Below, piece by piece: positions 6,125 to 52,754 of a stretch of DNA of 64,000 bases. Origin of the DNA: Chrysophaeum taylorii (lineage: Eukaryota > Sar > Pelagophyceae > Pelagomonadales > Pelagomonadaceae); the NCBI GenBank assembly GCA_029834535.1, contig JAQMWT010000201.1:37014-101013 (forward strand), read 5' to 3'. Each line of letters opens with the position of its first letter. Position 1 is the stretch's first letter. A model generated the notes under the pieces. That model saw only the letters and a program-made list of their open reading frames with translations, was not told the origin of the DNA and ran no database searches. The position numbers and the translations under genes are program-made.

Positions 6125-6133
6125 GGGCAAGCG

Positions 6134-8074: not shown

Positions 8075-8087
8075 GGAACGGTTTCAC

Positions 8088-10111: not shown

Positions 10112-10990
10112 TCAGCGAGTCCGGCGAGAAGCACGAGCCTTGGATGAACGAGCGTCTCGGGAACGAATCTTCTTGTATACACGTTCAACGACAGGTTCGG
10201 GAACGCGTCCACTACGCAAAGTGAAATTAGGAATCAGCGCATCGATCTCATGCGGGGCGAAGTCGGTGACACAAGGAGTGGTACTGTTGTTGACCTTGGT
10301 CTTGTCGGTGAAACCGTGACAGTCCGCGTCCTTGTATTCCGGCTTAAGCTTGCGAGTAGAGAGATGTGAGGTAGGCTTGTAATAAGAAACCTTGTCGTGG
10401 GGACCAAGATCAGCGTAGAAATGCAGAGCGACTCGATCATTCACAAAATCATAGGGTTCATAAACTTCAGCGACGTAAATCTTCTTTCGCCAATCGGACC
10501 GTTTATTATCCGGAATCCGAAAGACAACCAACCTCCCATGCTTGTAATCATCCCGAAAGGTCTCCTTGGGCTTGGGCACAGCTCGATCGACCACTGGAGA
10601 AACCATCACAGGGGTGATCTGGCTAACATGAACACAACGGCGTTCAGGAGGAGAATCAAGAGACTCAATCCTGTAAGTGACCGGGGACAAGCGTTCCAAA
10701 ATAACGAATGGACCGCGCCATTCCGGTCGAAGCTTGTTCTGAAGAAAAGGGATGTAGAGCAGAACATGTGAACCTTCTTCATACTCCACATCGACATGGT
10801 CCGCATTATAGGCGAGACGTTGTTTACGAAGAGCCTTCTCACGAGCTTCGTTCACCGTAGCGGTATAGAACTTCAGCCTCTCGCGAGTCTCGGCCACAAC
10901 ATCGGAGCGAGTTTTCGGCAGGCGGCGGACATCAAGATCCATGATCGTATAATCTGTTGGCACTAGAGGCTGCCGGTTGAGACGAAGCAT
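10112..10990 (-). pseudogene. pol: integrase C-terminal part and chromatin-reader-like tail (copy B)
   Basis: 292 open codons (MLRLNRQPLVPTDYTIMDLD...). They hold the end of the integrase (LLYIPFLQNKLRPEWRGPFV, the small barrel typical of gypsy integrases: 'KL.P.W.GPF.I.....P..Y.I'), then VHVSQITPV, and a module of about 150 residues (VVFRIP, 'DWRKKIYVAEVYEPYDF', 'VALHFYADLGP'). The position matches that of chromodomains in chromoviruses, and the pattern of Trp and acidic/aromatic residues would suit a small beta-barrel reader. I do not identify it as a true chromodomain. The frame continues from the integrase core upstream through stop codons. Confidence 0.7.
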
Positions 10991-10999
10991 GAAAGGTAA

Positions 11000-11993
11000 A
11001 ATCCGAGTTCCCGGAATAAACTTGCGATTTTAGCAAAAAGCAATGTACTCCGCGAATTCGGGCCATTCCGTGATCTTGCGGTTTTGAAGGCACGCACGGA
11101 GGAAAGCCTTGATAAAGCGGTTGACCCTTTCCGCAGGATTAGCCTGAGCATGATACGGAATCGTGGTACTATACCGAACATTGAAGAGATGACAAAACTC
11201 TTCCATCAACTTGTTGACGAACTCTTTCCCATTGTCGGTGCGAATCCTCTGAGGTAGATAACCTTTGAGTAATATATTCGCGACAAAAGACTCGAGGATT
11301 CAATCAGCAGTCTCATGGTGTAGTACGTCAAGAATCGAGAAATGAGAAAATGTGATCAAAATAGATGGTCAGATATGTATCGGGACCAGCGCTGGGCGAA
11401 GGTCCGAACATATCCATACAAAGGACGACGCAATCACCATAATACACCGGTTGCTGAAGCAGACCTGCTCTCTTTGGTTCGGGCGTACGAGCTTTCTTGC
11501 ACACTATGCAACCAGCAATGTAAGCACCCACCTCATTAGACATGTGGGGCCACCAAAAACGTTCAAGTATCGACTGCACTGTACTTTGACGACCCATGTG
11601 ACCACCATTGAGAGGTGTGTCATGGTACAATCGGATGATGCGCGTCCGTAAAGTTCGGGGTGCGACTATCATCGGGTGCAAGTCAGGTGCGGCACGGTAG
11701 AGAACTCCTTTCACCACTTGATAGCGATAATTGGCTCCGTACCGACGAAGAGAATGGCCCTGAGCCATGCGATAACGAATGTCCTCGCAAGTAGCATCAG
11801 TGATCTGCTCTTTGGCTATCTCTTCCAAAGTCAAATTATCCGGAATCTTGTCGATGTACTCTTGGTAATCATCGGCATCACGGAAAATACTAGGCTGGGT
11901 CTGCAGACGTTGCTTCTGACGTTGTTTCGTAGCATGAGACGTGACCAATTGCATCGGATCATCGAGGTCTTCTTCCTCTTCCTCCACAGGCAA
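11000..11993 (-). pseudogene. pol: gypsy integrase, zinc-binding and catalytic core (copy B)
   Basis: The frame 11,993-11,328 holds the HHCC zinc finger (HDTPLNGGHMGRQSTVQS, then GCIVCKKAR) and the first catalytic Asp (CMDMFGP). The second (RTDNGKEFVNKLMEEF) and third (HAQANPAERVNRFIKAF) catalytic residues lie at about 11,250-11,110. At least two stops interrupt them, one near 11,305 and one near 11,033 (C*NRKFIPGT, where copy C has CYNRKFIPGT). The integrase would insert the cDNA into the genome. The stops make this copy unlikely to encode an active one. Confidence 0.8.
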
Positions 11994-12048
11994 CTCAGTC
12001 GTAACAAACGACAGAATGACATGGCACCCAGGTAAAGGTACTCCTTCA

Positions 12049-12609
12049 TCATCGACAGGGCGAGAGTTCTTGGCACACTAGATACGCGTGGTTCAAGGGT
12101 TCACCAAACTCGTCCGTCTCGATGACATGATCTATAGGATTGCGAGAGAGACAGTCAGGGATACTCATTCCCGGCGACTTCCCTGGTTTGTAACCCAATT
12201 CAGGATCAAAGTTGGCGAGCCGCATCGCCCATCGAGCCAACTGCCCAGACGAGTGCTTCGCCTTTCGTAAAAACGTCAAGTTGCGATGATCCGTTTCAAG
12301 GATCGTCTTGTGACCTTCGATATAAGAGCGGAAATGCTCAAGAGAAAGAATAACTGCCAGTAGCTCTAGCCGGCGAGGCTCATAGTTCCGCATCTCTTTC
12401 GGCACAGCTCGGCTCCAATACTCAATTACTCGTTCCTCTCGTGTCACCTTGCCGGTTTCGTCCTTGACTTCCACGAGCTGAAAAAGATACGCGCCCAGAC
12501 CATCCTTGGAAGCATCCGAGCGGATCTGAAAAGGAAGATCGTAGTCAGGATGATAAACTCCGCGAGAGTCCACCAAAGCTTCGATGATCGTGTCCCATGC
12601 CTTTGGCAC
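12049..12609 (-). pseudogene. pol: gypsy RNase H domain (copy B)
   Basis: 186 codons. FQIRSDASKDGLGAYLFQ carries the first catalytic Asp ('DAS..G.G'). Then EPRRLELLAVILSLEHFRSY carries the Glu and DHRNLTFL the third acidic residue. WAMRLANFDPELGYKPGKS and MSIPDCLSR are the usual end of gypsy RNase H ('G..N..AD.LSR'). It degrades the RNA strand of the cDNA hybrid. It is joined to RT in another frame, with the overlap at 12,444-12,609, so a frameshift separates the two. Confidence 0.85.
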
Positions 12610-13660
12610 TCAGGCGTCCACTCAAACTTAACGCCTTCAAGACACAATCGCCTAAGCGGCTCCACAATCTTCGAATAATTCTTCACATATCGGCGGCAAT
12701 AGTTGCTCATGCCAATGAAAGATCGAATCTGGGTCTTCGGGGACGTATTAGGCAACGTACCAGGAATCGGCATCTGCTGCAGCGCTTCTAACGTCTTGGG
12801 ATTCAGCTTCAAGCCTAACGGAGTCGAAATATGTCCCAAAAACTCGATTTCATCCTTGAGGAGGTGGAACGTCGAAGTTCGTCCACTATATCCTCGCTGC
12901 GCTAAATGACACAACACTTCAATCAAAACTTGCAAATGTCGGTGGAGTTCATCCGATCCCATCATAATATCGTCGACAAACGCGACCAAGTCCTTATACA
13001 TCCATGTGGACAAATCGCTAGCCATATGCTTACAAAAGAGAGCTCCTGCTGTTTTTACCCCCAGAGGCAAGCGCAAGAAACTATGGGCTCCAAGTGGACT
13101 AACCATCGTAACGGCGTCCTGAGCAGCGGCGTCCAAACGTAGGTTATGATAACCCCATCGAATATCAATGCACGTCCGCCAACGGCGCATGGCAAGAAAA
13201 GCCAAAGCATCATCTTGACGAATATTCGGCCAACTGTCATTGACCAGCTGATCATTGAGCTGACGCAAGTCAACTGCAGCACGAAAAGCATTCGACGTCC
13301 CGGCCTCTGCTCCCTTCTTAGGCAGCATCAGTACAGGGAATCCCCACGGAGAGTTCGCCGGTCGGATGACTCCATCGCGACACCACTCAGTGATCTGCTT
13401 TCTGAGACACTCGAGCTTTGCTGGCGTCAACCTATAAGGCGTCATCTTGATCGGTCGTGGGTTTGCGTCTTTAAATCGTAGAGAAACCGGTGGCGAGTCC
13501 ACGGGTCTCATAATCGGATCAAAGAAAGCCCACGCGTATTGCACGCAGTGGCTCAACATCATCTTCGCATCATCATCCAGATGCGGGTTGTCGGGAATTC
13601 CCTGTTCTCGAACAACCTTTCGACTTCTTCGTCGGAATTACGACTTTCATCGCTCATTGT
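12600..13660 (-). pseudogene. pol: gypsy reverse transcriptase (copy B)
   Basis: The frame 13,562-12,444 covers fingers to thumb. MTPYRLTPAKLECLRKQITE and VIRPANSPWGFPVLMLPKKG are RT motifs 1-2. FRAAVDLRQLN is the dNTP-binding strand and CIDIRWGYHNLRLD holds the first catalytic Asp. FLRLPLGVKTAGALF and AFVDDIMMGS follow; FVDD, at about 12,969-12,980, replaces the usual YxDD. IEFLGHIST and NYCRRYV close the domain. The N-terminal lead-in (FDVPWKDAPRDADG...) lies in a shifted frame at 13,660-13,760. The active-site residues are all present, so this is the best preserved RT in the window. Confidence 0.88.
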
Positions 13661-13952
13661 CCTTGACGTGCTCGGGAGTCTGCGGTAACGGTACACCGTC
13701 CGCATCGCGCGGCGCATCCTTCCATGGCACATCGAACTTTTCTTCGTATTTGAACCTCACCTCAGGGTGGCTCTTATTGATCTTTTCACCTTTGACGCGC
13801 ACATTCGGCTCGCTCCTTACTTTCGGCTCCTGTTCAGGTTCAGGATCCGGCGGAACGTCCACTTTTGATTGTCGGGGGCAGCAGAAAAAGCATGAGCCGT
13901 CCCCGGGGCATCTGTTGGATGCGGGAGCATAGAGACTTTTGGCGGTTCCCAT

Positions 13953-15308
13953 TTAGTGGGATCCTGGAGACCATCGTGACACCCACTTAACGACACGAGT
14001 ACGCGCATTTAACAGCGGAATCTGTACGCGACGAAAGGTGGTGTCGGAGACTCGCAAATACTGCTCAAAGGATCGATCTGTCGGGCTCAACGCGGTCGGC
14101 AGGACTTCGCCACTTCGGCGGAAACCTCTGGTCGTGGAGTTGTGCAGATCGACTGCCAAAATAGCAAGAGTGTCCGGAGGGACGACAGACGCTAAATGTT
14201 TGAACGAATCTGTCTTATACAAGCTAGCCCAATCATGGTCCACCGGCATCGTGAGCAACTCGGCCGTCATCTCGAGAGTCAAAGGCTGAGTGTCCGAGCG
14301 ATGCGGTCCCAAACGAAGAGGAACTCGCGTAGCGGTGTAAGCCATATCTGTTGCTTCTCGGGACGAGCCAAGATTATTCAGCTGGAGCAGGTGGCGTTCA
14401 TGAGCGTAACCTAAAGCTGCAGCTAAGTTTTGTTGCATATACACACATGTCTTCGGAGCCTCTTGCGAATGCAGTGGGTGACTGGAAACCCACAATCGCA
14501 CGCGATAGCTCATCAGAGTGGGCGTGATATCATGAAAATTGACGACGTACACGTAAGGGTGTAAGCGCGCTATACAAGAAATAATGGACGCCTCCTGTTC
14601 AATCAGCCACATCATGAAGCCAGCCATTTTGCTCAGCTCCATCGTCCAGTTAGTGGCCGTAACACCCCTGCCAACATCTCTGGATGTCAAGTTGCAGAGT
14701 GCTGAATGAACGCAGGGTGGAGACGCTATACACATCGACGATGACCATTCCGCTTCAGGCAAATAAGCCTTGATCAATCGGAGGGTCGAGTCATATCGTC
14801 CGCAGAGCGTGTGCTGAACCACAGGTATCTTCGGAAAATTCTTCTGATGAACCTTGTTGGCAGCTGTTGAAGAGTCAAGAGCAAGGACGACTCGAAACGA
14901 CGTCCCGCACAACTCGTTCGCTCGTTGCAGTCCTAAAGTACTTCCTCCGGCGCCGCTATAGAGCATCACAACATTGCGATACGTGATCGGCACCCAGTGG
15001 ACCTTTCCAAACCTTCGGCGAATCTCGCCTTCTGTAACTTCTCGGCATTTCATTTCCTCCTCGTCAGTTCGTCGGTCGAAATCGTCGTTACCGAACGATG
15101 CTTGACGAGAATTTCTTCTTATCGGCAGAAGGAGACGGCCTGCACCGAGCTCAAAAGCATCGGTTCGGGAGCCGCATCGCCTTGAGTCAGATGGCGACCG
15201 AAACAGTGAATGATAGTTAGCCTTGTTAGATTCGGCTTCACCATCCCTCGTTAAATCGTCGACCGTCTCAGCATTCAGCTCGTCATCAAAACGAACAATA
15301 TCGCCCAA
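13953..15308 (-). CDS. retrotransposon-encoded C5-cytosine methyltransferase-like protein (copy B)
   Basis: 451 open codons. The motifs are VVMLYSGAGGSTLGLQRA (motif I, residues 113-130), VVLALDSSTAANKVHQKNF (motif II, Asp145), CIASPPCVHSALC (motif IV, Cys199), MWLIEQEASII (motif VI position, Glu237) and LMSYRVRLWVSS (motif VIII, Arg269 and Arg271). The linker upstream is partly frameshifted (residues about 30-75 read a different frame from copy D). The C-terminal part (LASVVPPDTLAILAVDLHNS and RTRVVKWVS) matches copies A and D. Located between protease and RT as in the other copies. The stretch 13,660-13,950 is linker with frameshifts that leads into RT. Confidence 0.8.
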   Translation of the reverse strand: MGDIVRFDDELNAETVDDLTRDGEAESNKANYHSLFRSPSDSRRCGSRTDAFELGAGRLLLPIRRNSRQASFGNDDFDRRTDEEEMKCREVTEGEIRRRFGKVHWVPITYRNVVMLYSGAGGSTLGLQRANELCGTSFRVVLALDSSTAANKVHQKNFPKIPVVQHTLCGRYDSTLRLIKAYLPEAEWSSSMCIASPPCVHSALCNLTSRDVGRGVTATNWTMELSKMAGFMMWLIEQEASIISCIARLHPYVYVVNFHDITPTLMSYRVRLWVSSHPLHSQEAPKTCVYMQQNLAAALGYAHERHLLQLNNLGSSREATDMAYTATRVPLRLGPHRSDTQPLTLEMTAELLTMPVDHDWASLYKTDSFKHLASVVPPDTLAILAVDLHNSTTRGFRRSGEVLPTALSPTDRSFEQYLRVSDTTFRRVQIPLLNARTRVVKWVSRWSPGSH

Positions 15309-15417
15309 AGCAGGACTTCACCTTGAGTAATCACGGTCGGCATCATCGGGTAGAGGATATCCACCACTCGAGCTGCGAACTTATCATGATCCTCAGGAGA
15401 AGAACACGTTCCATCGA

Positions 15418-16320
15418 CTACCCCAGTTGCTCGTACCCAGAAGACGTAGCAACGAAAACTTGCCCGTTTCCATGGGTCTGAAAGAGCGACTGGCACGCAG
15501 TGCGCCCAGGCTCGACCTTCATCGTGCGCGCAGCATAGGCTATCACTTCGCAGGCATCGCTGTTCGAACTTTGAGAAGGCGACTGGAGGGACTCCCCAAG
15601 TCGTCGAAGCTCCCGCTCGTTTCGGCGGTGGACGCTGGAGGTCTCAATCTTGCACAAGCGAGCGTAGACTCGGTTCTCAACTGTGCTCAGGCTCTTTTGC
15701 ATCGCATGGTGCTGTTGCCCATAAACCTGAACTACCACGGGATTGCGCTCGTCATAAGTTGTCTGAACGTCAAAATCGGAGAATCGACTCGTCGATCCTG
15801 CACCTTTAGCTTCTTGCGCCCATAAGCGACGTGTGCGGAGAAACGCAATGCGATTTCGCGGGTAGTCCACTATGGCTCCCAACACCCGAATATCGCGCGC
15901 TCCCAGCAAAATAGATGATTAGTATCGGCCACAATGGCAACAACTGGAACGGCCACGTCGTGCAAGCGCAATCGCAATGCGACCCATTTGTGGATAGTCG
16001 TCTTGTTCAATCCTGACCCGTACAGGGCGCTCGACTGGAAGATCGCCCGGTCAAGGATGATGCATCGCTTGCCAGTTTTCGACCATCCCGACAAATATAG
16101 GAGACATCAGCCATTCCATCCACGCCTAAAGTCGTTGCGAACTTCGGCCCGTCGTCGTCTATAAATATGACCAACTATAAACGTAAGTGTACCAGGGTCC
16201 AAACAACCGATGGTGATGGGTGGCTCGATCTTTTCCCCATCGCTCGGCGAAAGTGCAGTGTGATGACATCGTATCTCCGGTTTCGCATCGCCCGGCATCT
16301 GCATCGTCACCGCTGCCATA
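15418..16320 (-). pseudogene. retropepsin-like protease and linker (copy B)
   Basis: At 16,319-16,107 the frame reads GCLDPGTLTFIVGHIYRRR, which is copy D's DTGTLTFIVGHIYKR with Thr replaced by Pro in the catalytic triplet. After a frame change, VPVVAIVADTNHLFCWERA and, at 15,909, MLGARDIRVLGAIVDYP supply the flap side and the LLG strand. The rest to 15,418 is the linker (AARTMKVEPGRT, 'FVATSSGYEQLG') that precedes the methyltransferase. The Thr-to-Pro change plus several frameshifts make it inactive. Confidence 0.7.
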
Positions 16321-16329
16321 TCTGGCGTT

Positions 16330-18766
16330 CCATCTCGCCTCTGAATCTATATGGCGCTCGCCGCTTCGGCTGCTTCCTCATTCCCCAGTTTCGCTGACAA
16401 CAAATTCTGACACTTCTCAATCGGAGGCACATAGCATCCTTTATCTCTTCTGGCAATCGTCGTTTCTCGTCCATCAAATCGGACATTCCGTCAACTTCCT
16501 CCATCGGCGCCGCTGTGGTCTGCTCTGCTGCGACCAAAACTGTATCGGCTAAAACATCGGCTAAAACGGTTATAGGGGGGCGTAGGAAAAAGACGTCGTC
16601 CCGACGTCAACTCAAATCTGGCTAACGTCATCATCGTGAACTGCCCTGCAAGACATGCACATTGACGAATGGGGGACACTGGAACCTGCGGCATGGGTTC
16701 GTCGGTCTCGAATCTGAGTCTTCCAGTAGTGCGGAGAATCCAAAGTAGCATCTGATATTGCTTCATACGATGTGAAGGCCACCGAACGATCCGAGCGATG
16801 GTGGTATTTTGCTCCTGTTGCAAACGATGGCTCGTCACACAGCGACATCGGCAACATCATCGGAGACTCGGGCGGGGCGCGCCGTCGGGTAAAGACAACT
16901 CCCGACGATGGCGGCGCGTCGCATAAAGATTGGAACGCGAAAGTGGCGCTCGAATGTCCCGAACTATCCTGATATCGGCCTCCGTCATATTCGTCATCGT
17001 GATGTCGATGACGTCGGCGCCGGCGCGAATTGCGACTATAGCTCCGGCGACGGCGGGGACTCGGGCTGGTTTGAGGGTATGGGCCTTTCGATCGGGCTCT
17101 GGCTTCGATGTCGGCGCGACGATCGTCTAGAAGGTGATCGTCCGTCTCGCTGTCGTGTAGAAGACGTGGCATCCTTGATGCCTCTGACCTCGCTCACCAT
17201 GGTCGCCATTGTGGTTCCAAGATCGGTGAGGGCGTTTGAATTTCATTAGAAGGCGATCCGCGCGTGGCGTTCGCATGAGATGCATCATCACGCGCCCAAT
17301 CGGAACGCGATATGGGTTGCTTCTTCTGCTTACGAATACGCTTACATCGCACAGTAATAACGATCCGGATCGCGGTTGCAAACCACGCGATTCCCGTGTT
17401 CATCTTCATCATGGGTGGTCCAGAAGAATCCGCAGTCGCGCACGCCCTCTTGCACCACAAAAAGGATGCGTAAGATCAGCGGATCCGCATTCCCAGACGG
17501 TTTATCCGCATCTTGCTTGGCTTGTTGATCGGAGGCCATGGCTCGACCTCCCCGCCCTCGCGGCGGTTTATTCGATTTCGGATTAGGAGGGCCTTGGTCC
17601 TTCTCCTCCTCCATCAACTTCCGCAAGTCGTTCTCGAGCCGCGTGATAAGCGCCACCATCGACTTAAAGTCAAGTAACTATCAGGATGTCCGCTCCTCAT
17701 AGTCCGCACACGGGTCCTCAACTCCTTGGATGTCAACCCACTGATAAGCTGGTCGAGGATATCGACATCATCCATCGTGGGCTGGACACGGAACAGAACT
17801 CCTAGGCTTCCGATTGGAATCTGGTAATACGTCTGGACGTGCCGCTCCCCAGACTTCTCGGAACTGAAGCCTGGTGACCTTCCGCAGCTTGCCGAGCAGC
17901 TAGCGCTGCGTGCTCGGAGGTCGGCAAGTCGATCTAAAGTAATCAGAATTTTATAATGCGGCGTTATTAAGACGACGGATGCGACGAACCGAGGCTCCAT
18001 GCTCTTCATCGTCAGCATCAATTTCAAGTAAAACGACGGACCGTGCGGTAGCTCATCGCAGAGCTCCTCGTATTTCTGCAAGTGTTCCTCAAAAATTGGT
18101 GCAACGGTGTCCGTAGATGCACCGGTAGTAAGTAACGTAATTTCTCGACCGAGTAATGGTCATCTGCTAAAGTATGCATCATCGCTGCCGAATCCAAATT
18201 GAGTTGCCGTTGATCTCGGCCGTCGATTACGAGTTTGAAGTTGTCAGGCTTCAAACTAGAAGTGGGGCGACGGGATCGACTCAGGTTGCCCTTTTCGAAG
18301 GCGTCCGTAACCGTCTGCGATATTCCCCGCGATAATTCCCGTGAAATTTTCGTACCTTCATTCTCAGCTTCCGCCCTACCCCCAGTCTCCGTATCGACTC
18401 GGGGCGGAGGTTCATTCCCCGTTTCAGTATTCCTCTCCGGTTCAGGTGGCCTCACGGGCGTTTCCGGTTCGGGTCGACTCACGGGTCGTTCGCGGCTACT
18501 CTCACGACGCGCACGTTCGGCTAACAATTCATCTCGTTCACGACGAATTCGTTCAGCCTCTTCACGTAGGGTCTTCGATGTCTCAATCTCTTGCTGCAAT
18601 GCGTCATTGAGCATATCAACTTCTCGCAGAGCCGCTTCCTCTTTCGCGTCAGCCCTTTCACGGGCAAACGCTCAGCTAATCGTTCATTTTCGCGACGTCT
18701 CCGCTCGAGGCACACGAAGTCGACTTCGGGCTGCAGATCCGCGCTCAATCGTAACACGCTCGCCAC
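16330..18766 (-). pseudogene. gag: gypsy gag (copy B)
   Basis: From the right: a charged coiled coil (ERRRRENERLAERL, then after a frameshift MLNDALQQEIETSKTLREEA), a Pro/Glu-rich linker, NFKLVIDGRDQRQLNLDSAA with LADDHYS, then PIGSLGVLFRVQPTMDDVD and LDQLISGLTSKELRTRVRTM (capsid-like). A Cys/His cluster follows ('CGFFWTTHDEDEHGNRVVC' and YYC) at about 17,342-17,440, in the place of a zinc knuckle. Basic Arg/Ser-rich frames (17,172-16,612) and a short frame to 16,307 follow. There are at least five frame changes. The function would be particle assembly and RNA packaging. Confidence 0.65.
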
Positions 18767-18924
18767 GGTCTGGGGTCGTTGGACTCAACGGCGAAAATGG
18801 CAGTATCCGGAGGCACGTCAGGGGCACGTCAGCAACGTCGACTGCGCGGCCTCTTAATTCACCTTCCTCGCGGCCTATCTCAGGGGCGGCGGGAAGAACT
18901 GGAGGAGATTCTTCCTCACGCACG

Positions 18925-19351
18925 TCCGCGTCTGTATCCAGACTGTATCAAAATGTCGATGATGAATCTCGAAACACGTCCGGATCCGATGCAAGTAATG
19001 CACGTTGATTCCAACAACGCTATCTGTCGCTGTAAAGCAACGCCGCGGAATTCCAATCCGCTGGCAATTCAAAATGCCCGTGGGTAGCGATCCCACTCGT
19101 AAACAGCTTCCGCCGTTCAGCGCCAAAATCAATTCCCGGAGAATGCGCTGCGATTTCCAACTCGCACGCGTGTTCGTCGTCACTCGGAACGCACGAGCAC
19201 AAACAACGTTCGCGTATATTCTCAACGCAAACCGGTCACTGGAACTCCGTGTGCTTGATCAGGGCACGCGCAAATCGGACCACGTGATACAATACGTACG
19301 CGCAGCTCGTCGGCGACCGATGTAGTCGCACGATCTCGTGTCTCCACCACG
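18925..19351 (-). other. 5' leader of gypsy copy B, with possible primer-binding site
   Basis: No frame is open here. It is nearly identical to 41,230-41,667, which supports it as part of the element. In element orientation, a few bases after the LTR end (CCGCCA) comes TGGTGGAGACACGAGAT (TGGTGGAGTACACGAG in the 41.6-kb copy). A sequence starting TGG next to the 5' LTR is what a tRNA primer-binding site looks like. I cannot name the tRNA. Confidence 0.5.
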
Positions 19352-19643
19352 TGGCGGCACAGAAAACCATCCCGACCCCCGGTGACAAAGGGTACTCACC
19401 GACTTCCTATACCTACTGAAGAGGAAAACACGGACTTAGGGGTCGGGTATGCTCGCCACACACCTTGCTCCGCTCACCAAGCCTCTCAACAAGATGGAGG
19501 ATGGTAATGATAGCAAGAATGCTACAGGAATACAAGAGGTGCTCTACAAGAGGGGTATGATGTCACTAGGAAGGTAGGGAAAGGCGTCCCATTGAACAGG
19601 TGATAAGCAGAAAGGAGGGTAAGCGCGCCAGTTGCCGCCACAA
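19352..19643 (-). repeat. 5' LTR of gypsy copy B
   Basis: A 292-bp copy of the 9,762-10,081 repeat with the same ends (TGGCGGCACAG ... GTTGCCGCCACA on the plus strand) and small deletions. The many differences between the two LTRs mean that the insertion is not recent. Confidence 0.8.
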
Positions 19644-42829: not shown

Positions 42830-44553
42830 TCAGCGAGAGGTGCGACGAGAATCACGAGCCCTGGCTGAATGAGCATCTCGGGAACGGATTTTCTTGTAGA
42901 CGCGCTCGACGACGGGTTCGGGGACGCGTCCACTACGCAGAGTGAACTTGGGAATCAACACATCGATCTCGTGCGGAGCGAAGTCGGTGACACAGGGAGT
43001 GGTACTGCTATTGACCTTGGACTTGTCGGTGAAACTGCGACCGTCCACGTCCTTGTACTCCGGCTTGAGCTTGCGAGTAGAGAGATGTGAGGTGGGCTTG
43101 TAGTAGGAGACCTTGTCTTGCGGACCGAGGTCAGAGTAGAAATGCAGAGCTACTCGATCGTTCGCGTAATCATAAGGCTCATAAACTTCAGCCACGTAAA
43201 TCTTCTTGCGCCAATCGGACCGTTTGCGATCGGGGATCCGAAAGACAACGAACTTACCGTGCTTAAAATCGTCCCGAAAGGTTTCCTTGGGCTTAGGCAC
43301 GGCTCGATCGACCACTGGAGAAACCATCACAGGGGTGATCTGACTAACATGAACATCACGGCGTTCGGGCGGAGAGTCGAGAGACTCGATCTTGTAGGTG
43401 ACAGGAGACAGGCGTTCCACGATAATAAACGGGCCGCGCCATTCCGGTCGAAGCTTGTTCTGAAGAAAAGGAATGTAGAGCAAAACATGCGATCCCTCTT
43501 CATACTCAACATCAACATGGTCCGCATTGTAAGCGAGCCTTTGCTTCTGGAGAGCTTTCTTGCGAGCATCGTTCACCGTAGCGGTGTAGAACTTCAATTT
43601 CTCGCGGGTCTCTGACACAACATCAGAGCGAGTTTTCGGCAAACGTCGGGCGTCCAGATCCATGATCGTGTAATCAGTCGGCAGCAGCGGCTGTCGATTG
43701 AGGCGAAGCATGAACGGAGAAATCTGCGTACCCGGGATGAACTTGCGATTATAGCAGAGCGCGATATACTCTGCAAAAGCAGGCCAGTCCGTGATGTGCC
43801 GGTCCTGAAGGCACGCACGGAGAAAGGCCTTGATAAAGCGGCTGACCCGCTCAGCCGGATTCGCTTGAGCATGATGCGGAATTGTAGTGCTATACCGCTT
43901 GTTGAATAGCTGACAAAACTCTTCCATCAACTTGTTGACGAACTCTTTGCCATTGTCGGTGCGAATCATCAGAGGCAAGTACCCCTTGAGCAAGATATTC
44001 GCGACGAAAGACTCGAGGATCGCCTCAGCAGTCTTATGATGCAGCACGTCGAGAATCAGGGAATGAGAAAATGGATCGAAGAACACCATAAGATACGTCT
44101 CGGGGCCTGCACTGGGCAAGGTCCGAACAGATCCATGCAGAGGACGGCGCAGTCGCCGTTATACACCGGTTGCTGAAGAAGACCAGCTCTCTTGGGTTTT
44201 GGCGTGCGGGACTTCTTTCACACCAAACATCCAGCGATGTATCTGCCCGCTTCATTTGACATGTGGGGCCACCAAAAACGTTCAAGTGTCGATTGCACGG
44301 TACTGTCACGACCCATGTGACCACCAGTGAGAGGGGTATCATGCAAAAGTCGGATGGTGCGCTTCCGCAAGGTGCGGGGCGCGACTATCATTGGATGAAC
44401 ATCAGGTGCGACACGGTAGAGAACATGCTTCACAACTTGATAGCAAATGTTAACCTCTTGTCGGCGAACAGTATGCCCCTGAGCCATGCGATGGCGAATG
44501 TCTCCGCAAGTGGCGTCAGTGATCTGTTCCTTGGCAATCTCTTCCAAAGTCAA
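42830..44553 (-). pseudogene. pol: gypsy integrase and C-terminal tail (copy C)
   Basis: The frame 44,119-42,830 (429 codons) is the longest integrase frame in the window. It has TYLMVFFDPFSHSLILDVLH, RTDNGKEFVNKLMEEF, HAQANPAERVSRFIKAF, KLRPEWRGPFIIVERLSPVT and the complete reader-like tail (VVFRIP, 'DWRKKIYVAEVYEPYDY', VALHFYSDLGP) to a natural stop. The N-terminal frame (44,553-44,218) has HDTPLTGGHMGRDSTVQS and IAGCLV, but the final zinc-binding Cys codon TGT is TGA. A frameshift follows near 44,125 after CMDLFGP. The core is otherwise intact. Confidence 0.85.
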
Positions 44554-44572
44554 ATTATCCGGAATCTTGTGA

Positions 44573-44974
44573 TCCCTGCGATCACTAACCGTTGGTTGCG
44601 ATGGAGGACGGCGCCTAACACGCTTGCTCCCTGCGGCGGCCCCGGCCGTCCCGGAGTGAAACGGTGCCAGCTCGCCTCCCGGGCTGGCCGGTTAGCACCC
44701 GGAAAGTCCGCGCTGGGATGGGGTTCGCTCGGTTGGGCAGAACGCGACGGACAGGTCGATTGTTCGTGGGCCAACACGTCCGCGGCCTGCGACGCTTTTG
44801 CACGACCTCGCACAAGACCGCGCGCAGTGGCGGTCCACCATCAACAAGTCCGTTCTCGTCCCTCGCCTCTGCCCCAACTGCGCGATTTTCCTCTGTGATT
44901 CCGGATCGGCTCCTGCCGGTCCGGCCTGGCTCCCATGCTCGGGAGAGGTCTGAAGTTAGCTTAAGTTAGTTAGT
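44573..44974 (+). mobile_element. SINE-like insertion R2 (longest copy)
   Basis: From 44,664 it matches R1 (gctcgcctcccgggctggcc ... gaagttagcttaagttagttagt). A further 90 bp at the left (44,573-44,663, from gatccctgcgatcactaacc) are absent from R1 and may be the true 5' part of the repeat, or another insertion. It separates copy C from copy D. Confidence 0.65.
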
Positions 44975-45000
44975 GGCACAGTGATTCTTACTGTTCTCTA
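44975..45000 (+). repeat. 3' end of a copia-type LTR
   Basis: ggcacagtgattcttactgttctctag matches the last bases of the 58,606-58,789 LTR (gaggcaccgtgatttttactgttctctag). It is joined directly to the gypsy 3' region (ttagaatgcgagctgccct). It is a short scar of an earlier insertion or recombination. Confidence 0.55.
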
Positions 45001-46729
45001 GTTAGAATGCGAGCTGCCCTCAGCGAGAGGTGCGACGAGAATCACGAGCCTTGGCAGAATGAGCATCTCGGGAACGGATTTTCTTGTAGACGCGTTCGAC
45101 GACGGGTTCGGGCCGCGTCCACTATGCAGAGTGAACGTGGGCATCAACACATCTATGTTGTGCGGACGAAGTCGGCGTCGTCTTTGACTTCCACGAGTTT
45201 GAAAGATACGCGCCCAGGCCGTCCTTGGAAGCAACCGAACGGACCTGAAAGGGAAGATCGTAGTCCGGGTGATAGACTCCGCGAGAGTCCACCTAGGCTT
45301 CGATGATCGTATCCCACGACTTTTGGCACTCGGGCGTCCACTTGAACGGCACGCCCTCGAGACACAGTCGCCTCAACGGCTCTACAATCTTCGCATACTT
45401 CTTCACATATCGGCGGCAATAGTTGCTCATGCCGATGAAAGATCGAATCTGGGTCTTCGGAGACGAGTTCGGCAGCGTTCCGGGGATCGGCATCTGCTGC
45501 AACGCTTCTAACGTCTTAGGATTCGGCCTCAAGCATTCCGGAGTCGAAATGTGTCCCAGAAACTCGATTTTATCTTTGAGGAGGTGAAACTTCGCTGTTC
45601 GTCCACTGTATCCTCGGCATGCTACGTGGCACAGTACTTCAATCAAGACTTGTAAGTGACGGTTGAGGTCGTCCGATCCCATCATATATCGTCGACAAAC
45701 GCGACCAAGTCCTTATACATCCATTCCGACAAATCGCTGGCCATGTGCTTACAGAAAAAGAGCTCCTGCTCTTTTCACTCCCAGAGGCAAGCGCAAGAAA
45801 CTGTGGGCTCCGAGTGGGCTAACCATCGTGACGGCGTCCTGAGCGGCGGCGTCCAAACGCAGGTTGTGGTATCCCCATCGAATATCAATGCACGTCCGCC
45901 AACGGCGCATGGCAAGAAAGGCCAACGCGTCATCTTGGCGAATATTCGGCCAACTATCATTGACCAGCTGATCGTTGAGCTGACGTAAGTCGACTGCAGC
46001 ACGAAAAGCGTTCGACGTCCCGATCTCAGCTCCCTTCTTGGGCAGCATCAGCACCGGAAATCCCCACGGAGAGTTCGCCGGTCGGATGACTCCATCGCGG
46101 CACCACTCGGTGATCTGCTTTCTGAGACAATCGAGCTTCGCTGGCGTCAACCTGTTAGGCGTCATCTTGATCGGTCGTGGATTTGCGTCCTTAAATCGTA
46201 GAGAAACCGGCGGCGAGTCCACAGGTCTCATAATCGGGTCAAAAAAGGCCCACGCGCATTGTGCGCCGTGGCTTAGCATCATCTTCCCATCCTCATCCAG
46301 ATGCGGATTGTCGGGAATTCCCAGTTCTCGAACAACCTTCTCGACTTCTTCTTTCGTCGGAGTTTCGACTTTCATCGCTTCGTTGTCCTTGACGTGCTCC
46401 GGGGTCTGCGGCAGCGGCGCACCATCTGCATCGCGCGGCGCATCCTTCCACGGCACATTGGACTTTTCTTCGTATTTGAACCTCACTTCGGGATGGCTCT
46501 TGTTGATCTTTTCACCTTTGACGCGCACACTCGGTTCGCTCCTCACTTTCGGCTCCCGATCAGGTTCAGGATCCGGCGGAACGTCCAATTTTGGTTGTCG
46601 GGGGGGGGGCAGCAGAAGAAGCATGAGCCGTCCCGGCCGCATCTGTTGGAAGCGGAAGCAAAGGCACTTCTGGCGGTTTCCATTTGGTGCGATCCTGGAG
46701 ATCATCTTTTGACACCCACTTAACGACAC
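45001..46729 (-). pseudogene. pol: gypsy RT with RNase H start fused to tail (copy D)
   Basis: The frame 46,729-45,749 has the RT lead-in (VPWKDAPRDADGAPLPQTPE), MTPNRLTPAKLDCLRKQ, FRAAVDLRQLN, CIDIRWGYHNLRLD and FLRLPLGVKRAGALF. At the FVDD motif one base is missing (catcatatatcg against catcataatatcg in copy B), moving the frame to 45,685-45,293: MMGSDDLNRHLQVL, IEFLGHISTPECL, NYCRRYVKKYAKIVEPL. The RNase H start (SKDGLGAY region) is at about 45,200. At about 45,175 the sequence jumps to the polyprotein C-terminus, which ends at about 45,000. Confidence 0.8.
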
Positions 46730-46864
46730 GGGTACGCGTATTCAGCAGCGGAACCTGTACGTGACGAAGGGTGGTGTCGGTAATTCGCAGATACTGCTCA
46801 GAGGGTCGATCTGTATGGCTCAACGCGGTCGGCAGGATTTCCCCACTTCGGCGGAAACCTCGGG
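46566..46864 (-). pseudogene. post-methyltransferase segment (copy D)
   Basis: The frame 46,928-46,566 reads MASVVPPDTMGVLALDLHNS, then TRTRVVKWVSKDDLQDRTKW. It is homologous to the segments at 7,544-8,074 (copy A) and 13,953-14,200 (copy B). One frameshift separates it from the methyltransferase frame, with overlap to 46,928. Confidence 0.6.
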
Positions 46865-48712
46865 TCACGGAGTTATGCAGATCGAGGGCCAAAACCCCCA
46901 TAGTGTCTGGGGGCACGACAGACGCCAAGTGCTTGAACGAATCTGTCTTAGACAGGCCAGCCCAATCATGGTCCAGCGGCTCAAAGGCTGAGTGTCCGAG
47001 CGGTGCGGTCCTAAGCGAAGAGGAATTCGCGTAACGGTGTAAGCCGTATCCGTCGCGTCTCGGGACGAGCCTAGATTGTTCAGCTGGAGCAGGTGGCGTT
47101 CATCCGCATAACCTAATGCTGCAGCGAATTCTTGTTGCGTATTCGCACACGTTTTCGGAGCCTCTTGCAGGTGCAGCGCGCGACCGGAGACCAACAACCG
47201 CACGCGACAGTTCATCAAATTGGGCATAATGTCGTGAAAATTGACGACGTACACGTAGGGGCCTACACGCGCAATATAAGAGATGATCGATGCTTCTTGT
47301 TCAATCAGCCACATCATGAAGCCCGCCATTTTGCACAGCTTCATCGTCCAATGAGTGGCCGTCACTCCCTTGCCGACATCTCTGGACGTTAAATTGCAGA
47401 GTGCTGAATGAACACAGGGCGGGGACGCGATGCACATCGACGACGACCATTCTACGTCAGGCAAATAGCCTTTTATCAATCGGAGGGTCGTTTCATAGCG
47501 TCCGTAGAGCGTATGCTGAACCACAGGCACCTTAGGAAAATTCTTCTGATGAATCTTGTTGGCAGCTGCTGAAGAGTCAAGAGCAAGGACGACTCGAAAC
47601 GACGTCCCGCACAACTCGTTCGCTCGTTGCATCCCTAAAGTGCCTCCGGCGCCGCTGAATAGCATCACCACTTTGCGATACGTGATCGGCAGCCATTGGA
47701 CCTTTTCAACTATTCGGCGAATCTCGCATTCTGTAGCCTCTCGGCACTTCTTCTCCTCCTCGTCGGATCGTCGGTCGAAAGCGTCGTTACCGAGCGATTC
47801 CTGACGGGAGGTCACGTCCTTTTCGGCATACGGGGCCGCCTTTTGTACCGAGCTCAAAAGCATCGGCGCGGGGGCCGCTTCGCATTGCGTCATATGACTT
47901 GCGACCGAAACAGTGAACGACAGGTTGGCCTTGTCGTACTCGGCCTCACAGTCCTTCGTTAATTCTTCGACCGTAGCAACATTCAACTCGTCATCAAAAC
48001 GAATAATATCACCCAGAGCGAGTACTTCACCTTGAGTAATCACGGTCGGCACATCTTGGGTGGAGGAAATCGCCACTCGAGCGGCGGACTTGTCGTGATC
48101 CTCGGAAGATGAACACATTCCATCGACTACCCCGAGTTGCTCGTATCCAGGGGATGTAGCAACGAAAACTTGCCCGTCTTCCAAGGGCTCTGAAAGGGTA
48201 GCTGGCACGCAGTAAGTGCGCCCAGGCTCAACCTTCATCGTGCGCGCAGCGCAGGCCACCACTTCATGGGTAGCGCTGCTCGAAACGCGAGAAGGCATAA
48301 CGGTCGAGACTCCCCAAGTCGTCGAAGCTGCCGCTCGTTCTGGCGGTGGACTCTGGAGGTCTCTAATCGTACACAAGCGAGCGAAAACGCGATCCTCGAC
48401 CGTGTTCAGGCTGTGCTTCATCGCGGGGTGCTGGTGACCGTAAATCGGCACTACCACTGGGTTGCGCTCATCATAAGTTGATCTGAACGTCAGGATAGGG
48501 GAATCGACTCGTTGACCCTGCACCTTCAACCACTTGCGCCCATATGCGACTTGCGTGCGGAGAAACGCAATGCGATTGTGCGGGTAGTCCACCACGGCTC
48601 CCAGCACTCGAATATCGCGCGCTCCCAATAAAAATAAATGATTCGTATCGGCTACGATAGCAACCACTGGGACCGCCGCGTCGTCGCAAGAGCGACTCGC
48701 AACGCAACCCAT
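46865..48712 (-). CDS. protease C-terminus, linker and C5-cytosine methyltransferase-like protein (copy D)
   Basis: 615 uninterrupted codons, the best preserved version. Residues 14-45 are the protease end (VPVVAIVADTNHLFLLGARD). Residues 60-340 are the linker, including YDERNPVVVPIYGHQHPAMK, EPGRTYC, FVATSPGYEQLGVVDGMCSS and LALGDIIRFDDELN. The methyltransferase core runs 345-510: VVMLFSGAGGTLGMQRA (motif I, 348-364), VVLALDSSAAANKIHQKNF (motif II, Asp379), CIASPPCVHSALC (motif IV, Cys433), MMWLIEQEASII (Glu471 in the ENV position) and NCRVRLLVSG (motif VIII, Arg503, Arg505). A conserved C-terminal part follows (ALGYADERHLLQLNNLGSSR). The ATG at 48,712 is probably not the true start; the polyprotein would enter from the protease upstream. 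Confidence 0.83.
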   Translation of the reverse strand: MGCVASRSCDDAAVPVVAIVADTNHLFLLGARDIRVLGAVVDYPHNRIAFLRTQVAYGRKWLKVQGQRVDSPILTFRSTYDERNPVVVPIYGHQHPAMKHSLNTVEDRVFARLCTIRDLQSPPPERAAASTTWGVSTVMPSRVSSSATHEVVACAARTMKVEPGRTYCVPATLSEPLEDGQVFVATSPGYEQLGVVDGMCSSSEDHDKSAARVAISSTQDVPTVITQGEVLALGDIIRFDDELNVATVEELTKDCEAEYDKANLSFTVSVASHMTQCEAAPAPMLLSSVQKAAPYAEKDVTSRQESLGNDAFDRRSDEEEKKCREATECEIRRIVEKVQWLPITYRKVVMLFSGAGGTLGMQRANELCGTSFRVVLALDSSAAANKIHQKNFPKVPVVQHTLYGRYETTLRLIKGYLPDVEWSSSMCIASPPCVHSALCNLTSRDVGKGVTATHWTMKLCKMAGFMMWLIEQEASIISYIARVGPYVYVVNFHDIMPNLMNCRVRLLVSGRALHLQEAPKTCANTQQEFAAALGYADERHLLQLNNLGSSRDATDTAYTVTRIPLRLGPHRSDTQPLSRWTMIGLACLRQIRSSTWRLSCPQTLWGFWPSICITP

Positions 48713-48940
48713 TTGTAGATAGTCGCCTTGTTCAATCCCGACCCGTACAGGGTGCGCTCGACTGGGAGTTCGCCTTGGTCGAAGATTGTCTTATCCTTCG
48801 CCAGCTTGGCGACCATCTCGCGGCAAATATAAGAGACATCAGCCATTCCATCCACACCTATGGTCGTTGCGAACTTCGGCCCGTCTCGTCTTTTGTAAAT
48901 ATGCCCAACTATGAACGTAAGCGTGCCAGTATCCAAACAG
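48652..48940 (-). pseudogene. retropepsin catalytic half (copy D)
   Basis: MDTGTLTFIVGHIYKRRDGP holds an intact Asp-Thr-Gly. IGVDGMADVSYICREMVAKL and ERTLYGSGLNKATIYKWVAL follow. One frameshift near 48,690 joins it to the 615-codon frame. The N-terminal side is cut by the copia-type LTR. Confidence 0.75.
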
Positions 48941-48955
48941 CCGATGGTGACGAGG

Positions 48956-49137
48956 TAGAGAACAGTAATTACAACTGTGTTACCCTTCAGCAGAGTGAGA
49001 GCAGTGGTAGTCTGCCCTCGTCCTGTGCTCTAATAACGAGGACAGCACGGTGTGAATAACACAGCGTTTTTCTGAATTAAAAGTGTGCTAGAAGTAAGAG
49101 AGCTAACCCTATGATAGGGGGGTACTAACCCTAAATC
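48956..49137 (-). repeat. copia-type LTR (3' LTR of the minus-strand element)
   Basis: About 182 bp, the inverse of 52,755-52,935 with few differences (gatttagggttagtaccccc, acgctgtgttattcacaccg, tgctctcactctgctgaagg, actgttctcta). In minus orientation it follows agagatagaaaattt, a purine-rich stretch that also precedes the LTR at 58,606. Confidence 0.8.
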
Positions 49138-49159: not shown

Positions 49160-52100
49160 CACAGATTGAACTCGGTGAGCGAAATCTGGATCAAACTAAG
49201 CAGGAAGCGACTTTCCATCGACAAGTATGTGGAGAGTGTTCTGGACGGAATTGTACGGTGGGAGAGTAGCGGAAAGAGCAACTTGATGAGATGGTGGTGA
49301 AGAAGAGGTGGAATGAACACCGTAGGCGTTCTTGAACTTGTGGAATAAATTGCGGGAGAGAAGTTTCGAAAAATGATCAGCGATCTGGTAGTGAGTAGGA
49401 CACCAGAGGGGACGGAAGACCGAGTTGGCCTGGTAGTCAAGAATGCGAATTTCTCGTAGTTTGATATGACGAGAGGGAGCACGGACTTTAGGGTGATTAG
49501 CGACATGTAGTGCGCTAGCGTTGTCAATAAGCAGGGGGATAGCGTGAGCTTGATCACGCGAAAACAGATAAGGGTGAGAAGAGAAGACCTTAGGAAACCA
49601 TTGACATTAATCAGCGGCTGCGCTAGTGGCGATGAATTCGGCTTCCATGGTGCTTTTGGCAGTAAGGGTTTGGCGTTTGCTAGACCAAAATACGAGGCTG
49701 CCAAATACGAAAATACGTGCACCAGAATGAGATCGTAAGCGAGGGTCAGAACTATCAGCGAAATTGGCATCAGTGAAACAAATAATAGGTGAACTAAGAT
49801 GATGCAATTCTGGGTAGTTGCTGATAAGATGCTGAATAAAGGGCGTAATAGAGGGGCTGTCGGATGAATAGTCTAGAGAATCATTCGGAGTACCCTTCAA
49901 ATAGCGAAGTAAAACATACAAATGTAGAAGGTGGGTTTGCTCAGGGTTGTGCATGCCTTTGCAGCATTTGTTGCACAGAGTAGTAATATCAGGGCGGCAT
50001 GTGACAGACAAGTAAATACAAGTGCCACAGTAATGGGGAAAATGCTTGCGTAAAATTTCTAAGGTAGGAGCCAAGTCTGAAAGAAACTTAGCAGAAGGCT
50101 TCTGAGTGAGTATTTCAGAGTAAGGGACGTCAGAGCTACGAAGGTTGAGCTTATGCTCGGCGAGCATCTTATTTATCTTCGCTGCTACATTCATAGTGAG
50201 GTGACCAGCGGAGACATTGTAATGGACGTCGATACCAAGAAAAGATCGAATATTGTCGTGCCAAGTACCTTTGCCATGTTCTTTATCCAAAGCGGTGCGA
50301 AGATATGTGATTTTGGCGGTGTTGGTACCAGTGATCAAGAGATCACCGACAGAGACGGATAGGAGAACCCACATGTTAATATATCGATCCCAACTGATAT
50401 ATAGACAAGTGTCGACTTGCGAGCGTTCATACTCGTGTTGTCGAAGAAACGAATCAAGCTCAATGTTCCATAACAAAGCTGACTGTTTGAGACCATAGAG
50501 GGCCTTCACGAGTCGTAGAGCAAACTTGGACTCTGGGTGGTTCTTCTGTATCTGCTGGACAAGGTTCTGCGAGACACGAATTTCACGAGGTAAGTCGATC
50601 CATACCGGGCGATCGAGTGCCGATTGGATGAAGGCCTGGGGAATGTCCGCGTGCGCGACGGGGAGCTTGTGCTTCACAGCGATGGCGAGCAACAACCGGT
50701 TAGTGGCGAGCATCGCGGTCGGTGAAGATGAGGCATAGAAGTCGATGCCGACGCGTGCCAAGAAACCTCGGGCAACTAGACGAGCCTTGTAGCGGTCTGG
50801 GGTGCCGTCAGCAAAATACTTGATCTTCAGCACGAGTTTCGTCGAGATAGACGAACGGTCTGGCGGTAAAGGTTCTAGCTTAAAGACGCCGTTGGAGCAC
50901 AGTCCTTCAATCTCCCTGCGAATCGAAGCAATATGCTTGAGTTTGTCATCTTCGCTGAGGCCTTTGAGTTCGACAATCTTCTCGGGCTCATAGACAATGT
51001 CATCAGCAGTCACGAGCTGTAACACGACATGGTCGATGTGCTGCAAGTCATAGTCCATGACTTCTTGGAGAATGTCTTGATTCGGATCACTTTGACTTAG
51101 AAAGAGGTGTCCGAGTTCGCCAGAATCATGCATGAAGGCGGGTCTGTGACGAGAAGCTCGGTGGTAGTGCTGATGCGCTGAGATGTCCCATAAGAGATAG
51201 GAACTCATACTACAGAATTCTTGGTTCCATTGACGCGCATAGTACTCTGCCGGTGACAATTCGCCATGGCATACATGATTCTTGAGAACAGAGTTGTAGT
51301 TGTGCAGGTGATCAACCAGAACAGACGAATGATACGGCTTATCTGGGAAGTTGACGTGCCAGAGTTCTGCATCGGTTTCTCTATGCAGATCCAGTGCAAT
51401 GCCGCCCATGATACCATAGTCTTGGGTGGTATGTGCGAGGAGGCATCCTATCGGGACATCATCTGGCGGCTTAGCGTCCCTTCTAATGTTGAGATCATAT
51501 GCGATGCTGGCGGCATGGCCTTGATGCAGAGCGCTGACACTGATAAGAAACATCATGCTGGACATATTGGCTGTGGCGCGAGCCGTGGGTTGCTCCTGCT
51601 GGTATTTCCAGTTGCGACCATACTCTGATGCGATAATGCGTCTGGTGAACAGTTGTCCATCGTCAACACGTTTCACTATGTAAAGTTGGTCTTTGGGAAT
51701 GCGGAATCCGCGCTCGTCCTTGAGATCTGCCTTGAGTTTGTCACTCTGGTTGCGATGCACAAAGACTGGAGTAAAACCTGGATCGTCGAGAACAACCTCC
51801 AAGCGATCATTTCGCTGGGGCATCGGAATGCTTCCATCCGGCGGAGGTGGCCTGTTATGGAAGGAGAAGTCCTGTTCAGGTGTCTCGTCGCTGACGGGAC
51901 TTGGACCAGTAGCAGAGGTTTGATCTGGTTCCTTATCCTTGTCTTCGTCATCGGGTTTGTCATCATGGTTGTTGTCATGAGTCTCGCCCTCATTTTGCGG
52001 TTCCTGTCTAAGTTCCGGCATTGGCTGGTCGCTTATAGCTGGAAGCGGGTCCTCTTGCCGCGCTTCTGCTGGAAACTGCGCCTGTGCTTTGATGCGTCCA

Positions 52101-52735
52101 ATGTCCTTGTTGCGATTGACTACCATGTCCGCATCGACGTGGGAGTTTTTTTCGAGGTGACGATTTTTCCATATCGCCCTTGATGTACAAGTAGGATAGA
52201 GCTGTGAACATCACGGATAAATCGGTTCGTGCCAGGGAGATTCGGAAGATAGTTGTTGCTATTAAAGTAAGAGGCGGAGACGCTGGAGGGTTCCAGTTTT
52301 CGACTTTGCGGGTACACGAATGTGACAGGCTCGCCAAAGGGGAGAAGCTTCAAGAGTGGTGCCGTATATGACATAATGCGCTTGGGGACGGTGCAGGGCA
52401 GATGAGTGCGCGAGGGCAATCCATGAGAGCGCTGATTGTCTGCTTGGATCTTGTGCAGCAGAGCAAACGGGTGGTAATACTCGGCGCTAATGGGCTTTCC
52501 TTCAATGCGGACGCTGCGCAGATTCAGAAGGCGAACGACAGTGCCCCGGGTATTTTCTTCGATGATGTTTTCCGCTAAGTTGCGCTGGTGTAGGTGGCGA
52601 CCAATGATTTGAAACTGGGCACCAAGTTGCACCTTGAGCGGGTGAAAAGCTTCGGAGCGAAATGTGGAAAAAAGCATCAGATGAGATGATTTTCACACTT
52701 ACATCGAATTCGACCTTAATCACGTTGACCACGTA
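49160..52735 (-). pseudogene. pol: Ty1/copia pol: integrase end, RT, RNase H
   Basis: The frame 52,126-49,607 (839 codons) is copia RT: STKLVLKIKYFADGTPDRYK and ARLVARGF, then AVKHKLPVAHADIPQAFIQS (first Asp), LVKALYGLKQSALLWN and VDTCLYISW. In place of YVDD it has SVSVGDLLITG, so the catalytic Asp pair is reduced to one Asp. Then FLGIDVHY, RNase H (CFTDANFADSSDPRLRSHSG and AKSTMEAEFIATSAAA). The last part of RNase H continues in a shifted frame to about 49,160. The 52,677-52,120 frame (HLHQRNLAENIIEENTRG ... PGTNRFIRDVHSSILL) is the region between integrase and RT. Gag, protease and the integrase core are absent on this strand. Confidence 0.85.
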
Positions 52736-52754
52736 GAGTAGAGATACAATATTC

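Follow-up and report, generated by a model that had tools for sequence, protein, structure and literature searches.

Hosts normally silence retrotransposons by cytosine methylation, so elements that carry a methyltransferase of their own, and keep it under selection, need explaining. This question is raised by a locus of the alga Chrysophaeum taylorii, which lies in a window of 64,000 nucleotides, the whole stretch of DNA that was analysed. An initial annotation of the window, made from its letters, had placed at 46865..48712 a Ty3/gypsy element (copy D) with a C5-cytosine DNA methyltransferase (C5-MTase), and described two relatives (copies A and B). Here we explore what this element is, whether the domain behaves like a C5-MTase in its sequence and evolution, and what such an enzyme could do for a retrotransposon.

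Parts of the window were placed by tblastn with pieces of an open relative, P0004 (contig C5:544484-553672). The features are as follows.

46803..47824, minus strand: copy D, C5-MTase domain (tblastn with the L009 MTase as query, 78% over residues 1-281 and 71% over 292-350; translation)
47825..49005, minus strand: copy D, retropepsin-like protease region and spacer (tblastn, 65-68% to the P0004 protease region)
45341..46793, minus strand: copy D, linker and reverse transcriptase (RT) (tblastn, 79-86%)
42845..45340, minus strand: copy D, start of RNase H (45340-45203), then interrupted; integrase (44532-43304); C-terminal tail (43303-42845) (tblastn)
14067..15092, minus strand: copy B, C5-MTase domain, open across motifs I-X (translation, tblastn, alignment; PF00145 20.8 bits, E 2.9e-4)
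10124..14060, minus strand: copy B, linker, RT (13430-12621), RNase H (12603-12064), integrase (11813-10583) and C-terminal tail (tblastn, 65-94%)
15140..18947, minus strand: copy B, gag-like (18947-16152) and protease regions (tblastn with the L010 N-terminal part, and separately with the protease region)
9762..10055, minus strand: copy B, probable 3' LTR (window self-blast, 88% to 19352-19624)
19352..19624, minus strand: copy B, probable 5' LTR (window self-blast)
6737..7744, plus strand: copy A, C5-MTase domain of subfamily A (translation, tblastn; 43% to D type)
5687..6667, plus strand: copy A, protease region (tblastn, 41%)
7823..9669, plus strand: copy A, linker, first ~100 RT residues, then late integrase and C-terminal tail (tblastn)
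50090..52750, minus strand: Ty1/copia remnant with integrase and RT (tblastn to L038, two main pieces 91-92% and two short ones 65-79%; RVT_2 125.7 bits)

The annotated span of copy D thus holds the MTase only from about 47824 downwards, its part 48712-47825 being protease and spacer. Motifs I-VIII lie inside ORF 46865-48790. Due to a frame break near 46979 the tail of that ORF at 46865 is out of frame, and motifs IX-X, found in another frame at 46979-46803, fall outside it; these two motifs, which the initial annotation lacked, are also present in the family. Copy A has a stop at 7541-7543, the start of motif IX, and most of its RT and RNase H is missing by tblastn. The claim that the MTase lies between retropepsin and RT in all three copies therefore stands as gene order for B and D, and holds in A only with an RT remnant. 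The Ty3/gypsy architecture was borne out by the tblastn parts, the LTRs and the Pfam order of P0004. The Ty1/copia remnant adjoins copy D and lacks an MTase part by tblastn, though fuller copies of its family carry a C5-MTase.

Elsewhere in the window, tandem repeats of 168 and 18 nt occur at 896-2195 within overlapping long ORFs. A cluster of short repeats at 20370-24433, both direct and inverted and for the most part 86-99% alike, resembles nested foldback elements, and copies of another repeat, about 75-94% alike, occupy 34635-40942 and 60350-64000 in both orientations. A 1148-aa ORF at 54832-58278 (plus strand) was considered as a further MTase and rejected: the copia MTase query gave 22% with low-complexity masking off, and the protein is Ser/Thr-rich and has no Pfam match.

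C5-MTases share motifs named I, IV, VI, VIII, IX and X. Motifs I, IV (PC), VI (Glu), VIII (RxR), IX and X are present in that order in the gypsy domain (alignment A5 of diverged MTases and its motif table). All 14 rows share GxGG, the Asp at the strand end, P-x-C and Glu without exception, and the motif VIII arginines are kept in the 13 rows that extend that far. Since the rows are diverged, this invariance shows that the annotated motifs are not a matter of chance. The translations of the three window copies read FSGAGG, YSGAGG or FGGIGG, then LALDS or LVIDA, SPPC, IEQE and RxR, largely as first described. The reported replacement of ENV by EQE in motif VI is seen in 13 of the 14 rows, the remaining one, a metagenomic relative, having the usual ENV. 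V or I follows PPC, and motif X lacks GN, reading LAS, LAA or LGS.

The Pfam profile DNA_methylase (PF00145, cut-off 22 bits) recognizes the domain unevenly. P0003 (copy B) scored 19.4 bits (E 8e-4) and P0001 (copy D) 12.1 bits (E 0.13). P0002 (copy A), in the Pfam scan, and L042 were without a PF00145 match, and two A-type members were without any Pfam match. The isolated D-type domain L009 (25.3 bits) and the protein P0005 (30.5 bits) were above the cut-off, and the C-type L049 reached 38.1 bits (E 1.6e-9), with its best stretch over motifs IX-X (profile 257-321 of 324), where it aligns unaided. At E<=1, 10 of the 13 rows of alignment A2 matched. The PF00145 search suggested as a check was thus positive for some D- and C-type relatives, with window copies A, B and D below cut-off; surveys using this profile can therefore miss such families. 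TIGR00675 matched 11 of the 13 rows at E<=0.5, and the PHROG 'DNA methyltransferase' matched L049 (4e-12). Structure prediction pointed the same way: Foldseek with an AlphaFold model made from A5 (mean pLDDT 52, several core blocks 70-93) put C5-MTases first in the PDB, at ranks 1-22 and in 45 of the 50 rows listed, with Dnmt2 as best match (E 2.1e-7). With VIA-align C5-MTases tied with other methyltransferases. A first model (pLDDT 44) had given mixed methyltransferase matches and was replaced by this second one; 9vi9_A, considered as a structural relative of P0002, was set aside as a chance match. Pfam scans matched no CXXC, BAH or PHD domain, as had been stated. Motifs, PF00145 matches of some members and the fold search together bear out the identification as a C5-MTase. 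Locus D represents a degenerate member of a Ty3/gypsy lineage that was active recently, and that it encodes a divergent C5-cytosine MTase domain of Pol, between protease and RT, is practically certain. That SAM and catalytic residues are constrained speaks for catalysis, and judged by sequence the enzyme is probably competent in intact copies.

The assembly from which the window comes (70.8 Mb, 697 contigs) holds at least three gypsy subfamilies with MTase, the A, C and D types. Identity to the D-type MTase is 45-46% for A (43% for window copy A) and 39-40% for C; the C members L049 and L050 share 39% of MTase and 62-64% of RT residues with D. P0001 as query gave at least 71 matches at >=69% identity, a lower bound since 71 of 1364 candidates were scored. 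The subfamily C query gave at least 131 matches at >=57%, partly pieces (123 scored of 925 candidates). As the D and C sets are distinct in identity, there are more than 200 matches altogether. P0002 gave 95 rows, counted by eye, 30 of which at >=71% represent subfamily A, some being pieces of one copy; the others are a 48-residue piece at 54% and D-type sequences at 41-44%. With P0005 at least 150 matches were obtained (150 scored of 549 candidates), and 141 of these 150 listed best-scoring copies are free of stops across the ~185 residues matched (counted by eye, frame breaks uncounted).

Contig C5 carries two D-type copies whose open frames run to 3067 and 3063 aa. The copy at C5:520043-530330 is bounded by TG..CA LTRs of 336 bp that are 100% identical, and the LTRs of the copy at C5:544100-554379 are 98.2% identical, the lengths over both copies ranging from 336 to 341 bp. 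Such near-identical LTRs and long open frames indicate recent insertions. P0004 (3063 aa, one frame) has RVT_1, two RNase H models, H2C2 and rve above their Pfam cut-offs, Integrase_p58_C at 26.8 against a cut-off of 27, and the MTase stretch at 1443-1498, ahead of RT at 1997. Its Pol order fits protease, RT, RNase H, integrase, where the protease, without a Pfam match, is recognized by its DGM-A motif and position. In the members of A, C and D that were examined (P0004, L042, L043, L044, L049, L050), the retropepsin active site has DGM-A in place of DTG/DSG-A.

A gag-like part is present in L010, L011, L012, L013 and window copy B; tblastn with the L010 N-terminal part found it in neither of the two contig C5 copies nor in L044, which are therefore not complete by themselves. 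The contig C5 copies with the longest frames and young LTRs (L009, L047-L048) and L044 are possibly non-autonomous. Neither of the two contig C5 copies read has matching 5-bp flanks of its own as target-site duplication. AGGAG adjoins one copy on its 5' side and the other on its 3' side, which could reflect an exchange between them or chance. No MTase-free gypsy sister was found among three loci examined; L051, a candidate for one, showed no match to the gypsy pieces and has a LINE-like RT. Contig C696 bears at least eight matches to RVT_1, lying in open frames of 565-716 aa; they resemble organellar group II introns.

A PF00145 search of the assembly, in which 123 of 474 candidates were scored, gave at least 57 matches. 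Two of these are L026 and L027; of the other 55, ten were examined (L028-L037), and every one carries the MTase of one Ty1/copia family. The L038 ORF (1952 aa) encodes in order a protease (DGGAS), MTase, integrase and copia RT, with PF00145 at 32.1 bits, RVT_2 at 133.2 bits and rve at 17.2 bits, below its cut-off. Its MTase motifs are canonical, PCQ and ENV, and a motif X-like ALANAVPHH lies ~300 residues beyond motif VIII. Throughout L028-L040 ~300 residues separate motifs VIII and IX, a segment with conserved CAYH-DGAI and NRSHP stretches and no Pfam match of its own. Gypsy and copia MTases (A1) gave no profile match in either direction, the alignments being shallow, which suggests two separate captures.

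Selection on the gypsy MTase was estimated as pairwise dN/dS by NG86 for eight pairs, most of which fall at 0.06-0.3. The lowest values, 0.059 for L009/L010 and 0.071 for L009/winB, come from pairs with dS of about 2, near saturation. L002/L010 gave 0.079 (5-95% 0.037-0.11), L009/L044 0.229, L042/L019 0.244, winB/L010 0.26, winB/L002 0.31 and L042/L021 0.48 (0.29-0.96). In L009/L010 the other regions gave 0.02 for RT, 0.035 for RNase H and 0.15 for the spacer before the MTase. The MTase is thus constrained, more weakly than RT but more strongly than the spacer.

If the enzyme methylated CpG in integrated copies over long times, a footprint could be expected. CpG obs/exp is 1.30 in one D copy, 1.17-1.36 in the other listed D-type loci (flanks included), 1.21-1.26 in A loci, 0.99 in subfamily C (L049, L050; TG and CA 1.17), 1.00-1.04 in copia loci and 1.26 and 1.46 in two host-gene loci. 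The ratio of CpG to non-CpG transitions between copies is 1.00 for D (P 1.0), 0.90 for A (P 0.23) and 1.51 for copia (P 2.3e-4; no difference in transversions, P 1.0), all P values being nominal since pairs share history. Transition rates in D and A are similar in CpG, CHG and CHH, and subfamily C has too few changes for the comparison. With neither CpG depletion nor an excess of CpG transitions, D and A give no sign of long-term CpG methylation. Lasting CpG self-methylation of these copies is unsupported, and for them the proposal that the element methylates its own DNA survives only in a transient form. CpG methylation is possible in subfamily C, whose CpG obs/exp is below that of D and A elements and of the two host loci. 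The mild copia excess indicates that cytosine methylation probably acts on some elements here, a signal that may come from the host's own enzymes.

We favour the following reading. The MTase domain would be made as part of (Gag-)Pol and packaged in the particle together with RT; it would bind SAM, its PPC cysteine attacking cytosine, and methylate the element's own nucleic acid during replication. The likeliest target would be new cDNA before integration, where a transient mark may give protection or make the molecule look like host chromatin. After integration the mark would not be retained as CpG methylation in D and A copies. We put this reading as a whole, transient cDNA methylation by a Pol-borne MTase, at a probability of about 0.5. 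Action on the element's own replication intermediates seems slightly better than an even bet, and given such action cDNA is modestly favoured over RNA. As D and A have no CpG footprint, lasting CpG self-methylation is disfavoured there, and a transient cDNA mark, or RNA as target, fits better; cDNA methylation is our first choice and RNA methylation our second.

The RNA alternative, a Dnmt2-like enzyme that methylates genomic RNA or the tRNA primer in the particle, is possible but on balance unlikely. Replication of LTR elements starts from a tRNA primer, which offers a target, and the similar D and A transition rates in all three cytosine contexts agree with one other than DNA. Of three in-genome MTases compared by hhalign, L026 alone matched the gypsy profile (E 1.2e-5 and 1.3e-5), L027 and copia A1 being without match. 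L026, a gene for Dnmt2 that scores 137.9 bits against human DNMT2, carries SCFTKSYG; its neighbour on the opposite strand encodes a light-harvesting protein, best matched to peridinin-, fucoxanthin- and VCPI-type chains, which points to an algal host whose plastid is of the red lineage. L027 (C621:16962), an open frame of 2086 aa whose C5-MTase domain has TSCVDYS and ENV, is apparently a host gene of another DNMT class. Dnmt2 is also among the best sequence matches in the PDB and first by Foldseek. The PDB matches by sequence are weak, however, and the edge of Dnmt2 is small, as the bacterial-type chain 3g7u scores equally (16.6 against 16.5 bits). Dnmt2 enzymes have a CFT signature, which is not kept in the gypsy MTases: the aligned stretch reads YTVTR, YTITR, FTVTR and variants, with no Cys. 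Nor was a primer tRNA matched to the region after the LTR; the pattern occurred at 95 places, each with one mismatch and in its element form, and no tRNA gene was seen. That two unrelated LTR superfamilies separately took up C5-MTases in one and the same position, directly behind the protease, and that the gypsy one modifies particle RNA (genomic RNA or tRNA primer) and not DNA, is as a joint proposition unlikely; if true of the gypsy enzyme, it would mean an RNA-modifying enzyme built into a retroelement Pol.

The domain could instead be non-catalytic, retained as a folded part that binds nucleic acid or spaces the polyprotein. EQE for ENV, V or I after PPC, the weak Pfam scores and the two A-type members without Pfam match all suit such a role. 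Against it, GxGG, Asp, Cys, Glu and the motif VIII arginines are kept as described although A and C are only 39-46% identical to D, and a spacer would hardly retain exactly those residues; we consider it rather unlikely. Action on host chromatin, by methylating insertion sites or interfering with host silencing, appears improbable. The idea is discussed for Symbiodinium elements in passages of an earlier paper (PMC5890265), and the 1.51-fold copia transition ratio would suit it, but Pfam detects neither a reader nor a targeting domain in P0004, a footprint is absent from D and A copies, and host enzymes may account for the copia signal. Least probable, with only a slim chance, is descent, vertical or horizontal, from the capture that produced KnitGypsy-Dnmt3 of Klebsormidium nitens: that element too is described with a Dnmt-like domain in Gypsy Pol (PMC5890265) and DNMT3 chains occur among the fold matches of the second model, but the profile search of the PDB found Dnmt2 and bacterial-type chains and no DNMT3 chain at E<=10, and the protein collection yielded only P0005, KnitGypsy being compared by description.

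That collection gave P0005 alone, by A2 (among 8000 scored) and by A4 (among 5223), and the polyprotein region matched none of 5802 candidates. In viral contigs 51 gypsy and 112 copia MTase pattern matches were found, none confirmed; close relatives of this genome may be missing from that set. An independent capture or a new host range, as raised by the initial annotation, is plausible given the red-lineage type of the light-harvesting gene and the missing DNMT3 profile match, with the KnitGypsy enzyme compared by description. A compact genome with many copies, young insertions, several subfamilies, a copia parallel and differing CpG content makes the role of the enzyme directly testable.

Retrotransposon-borne MTases have been known since 2018 (de Mendoza et al. 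2018, PMC5890265), and few cases are in print within the literature searched. No C5-MTase reported from a Ty3/gypsy or Ty1/copia element of a stramenopile-type alga turned up in the searches; as a caveat, a passage of PMC6338049 names stramenopiles among the organisms that bear 'DAM- and DCM-encoding' Ty3/Gypsy and DIRS elements, and one of PMC12344493, citing the 2018 paper, mentions DNMT3 in 'LTR Copia and DIRS' elements. As far as these searches show, and with that caveat, the host group is new for such elements.

Compared with host Dnmt2 (L026), the likeness of the gypsy domain consists of the sequence match and the first Foldseek match; the match is remote, CFT is not kept and the gypsy domain is part of Pol. 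The copia element here also has its C5-MTase directly after the protease, but with canonical PCQ/ENV, ~300 residues between motifs VIII and IX, and integrase ahead of RT. KnitGypsy-Dnmt3, in the parts of the 2018 paper that describe it, shares a C5-MTase domain, itself under purifying selection, in a Gypsy-type polyprotein; its domain is a member of Dnmt3, and its repeats are arranged as in DIRS (PMC5890265); compared by that description, the family here differs in its ordinary TG..CA LTRs, its EQE in motif VI, the lack of a Dnmt3 sequence match, another host and a copia superfamily with C5-MTase in the same genome. The Symbiodinium elements SymbioDIRS-Dnmt3 and SymbioLINE-Dnmt, as presented there, likewise supply very many retrotransposon-borne DNMTs in one algal genome, and the LINE type is likewise an orphan MTase lineage, but they are tyrosine-recombinase or LINE elements and not Ty3/Ty1, and SymbioLINE is CpG-depleted, unlike D and A copies here (PMC5890265). 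SymbioDIRS Dnmt3 domains methylate CpG in yeast, and cDNA methylation was proposed by those authors (PMC5890265). What is new here is an orphan MTase lineage with EQE for ENV, carried between ordinary LTRs by copies whose D and A types show no CpG depletion, in a genome where two LTR superfamilies bear such enzymes.
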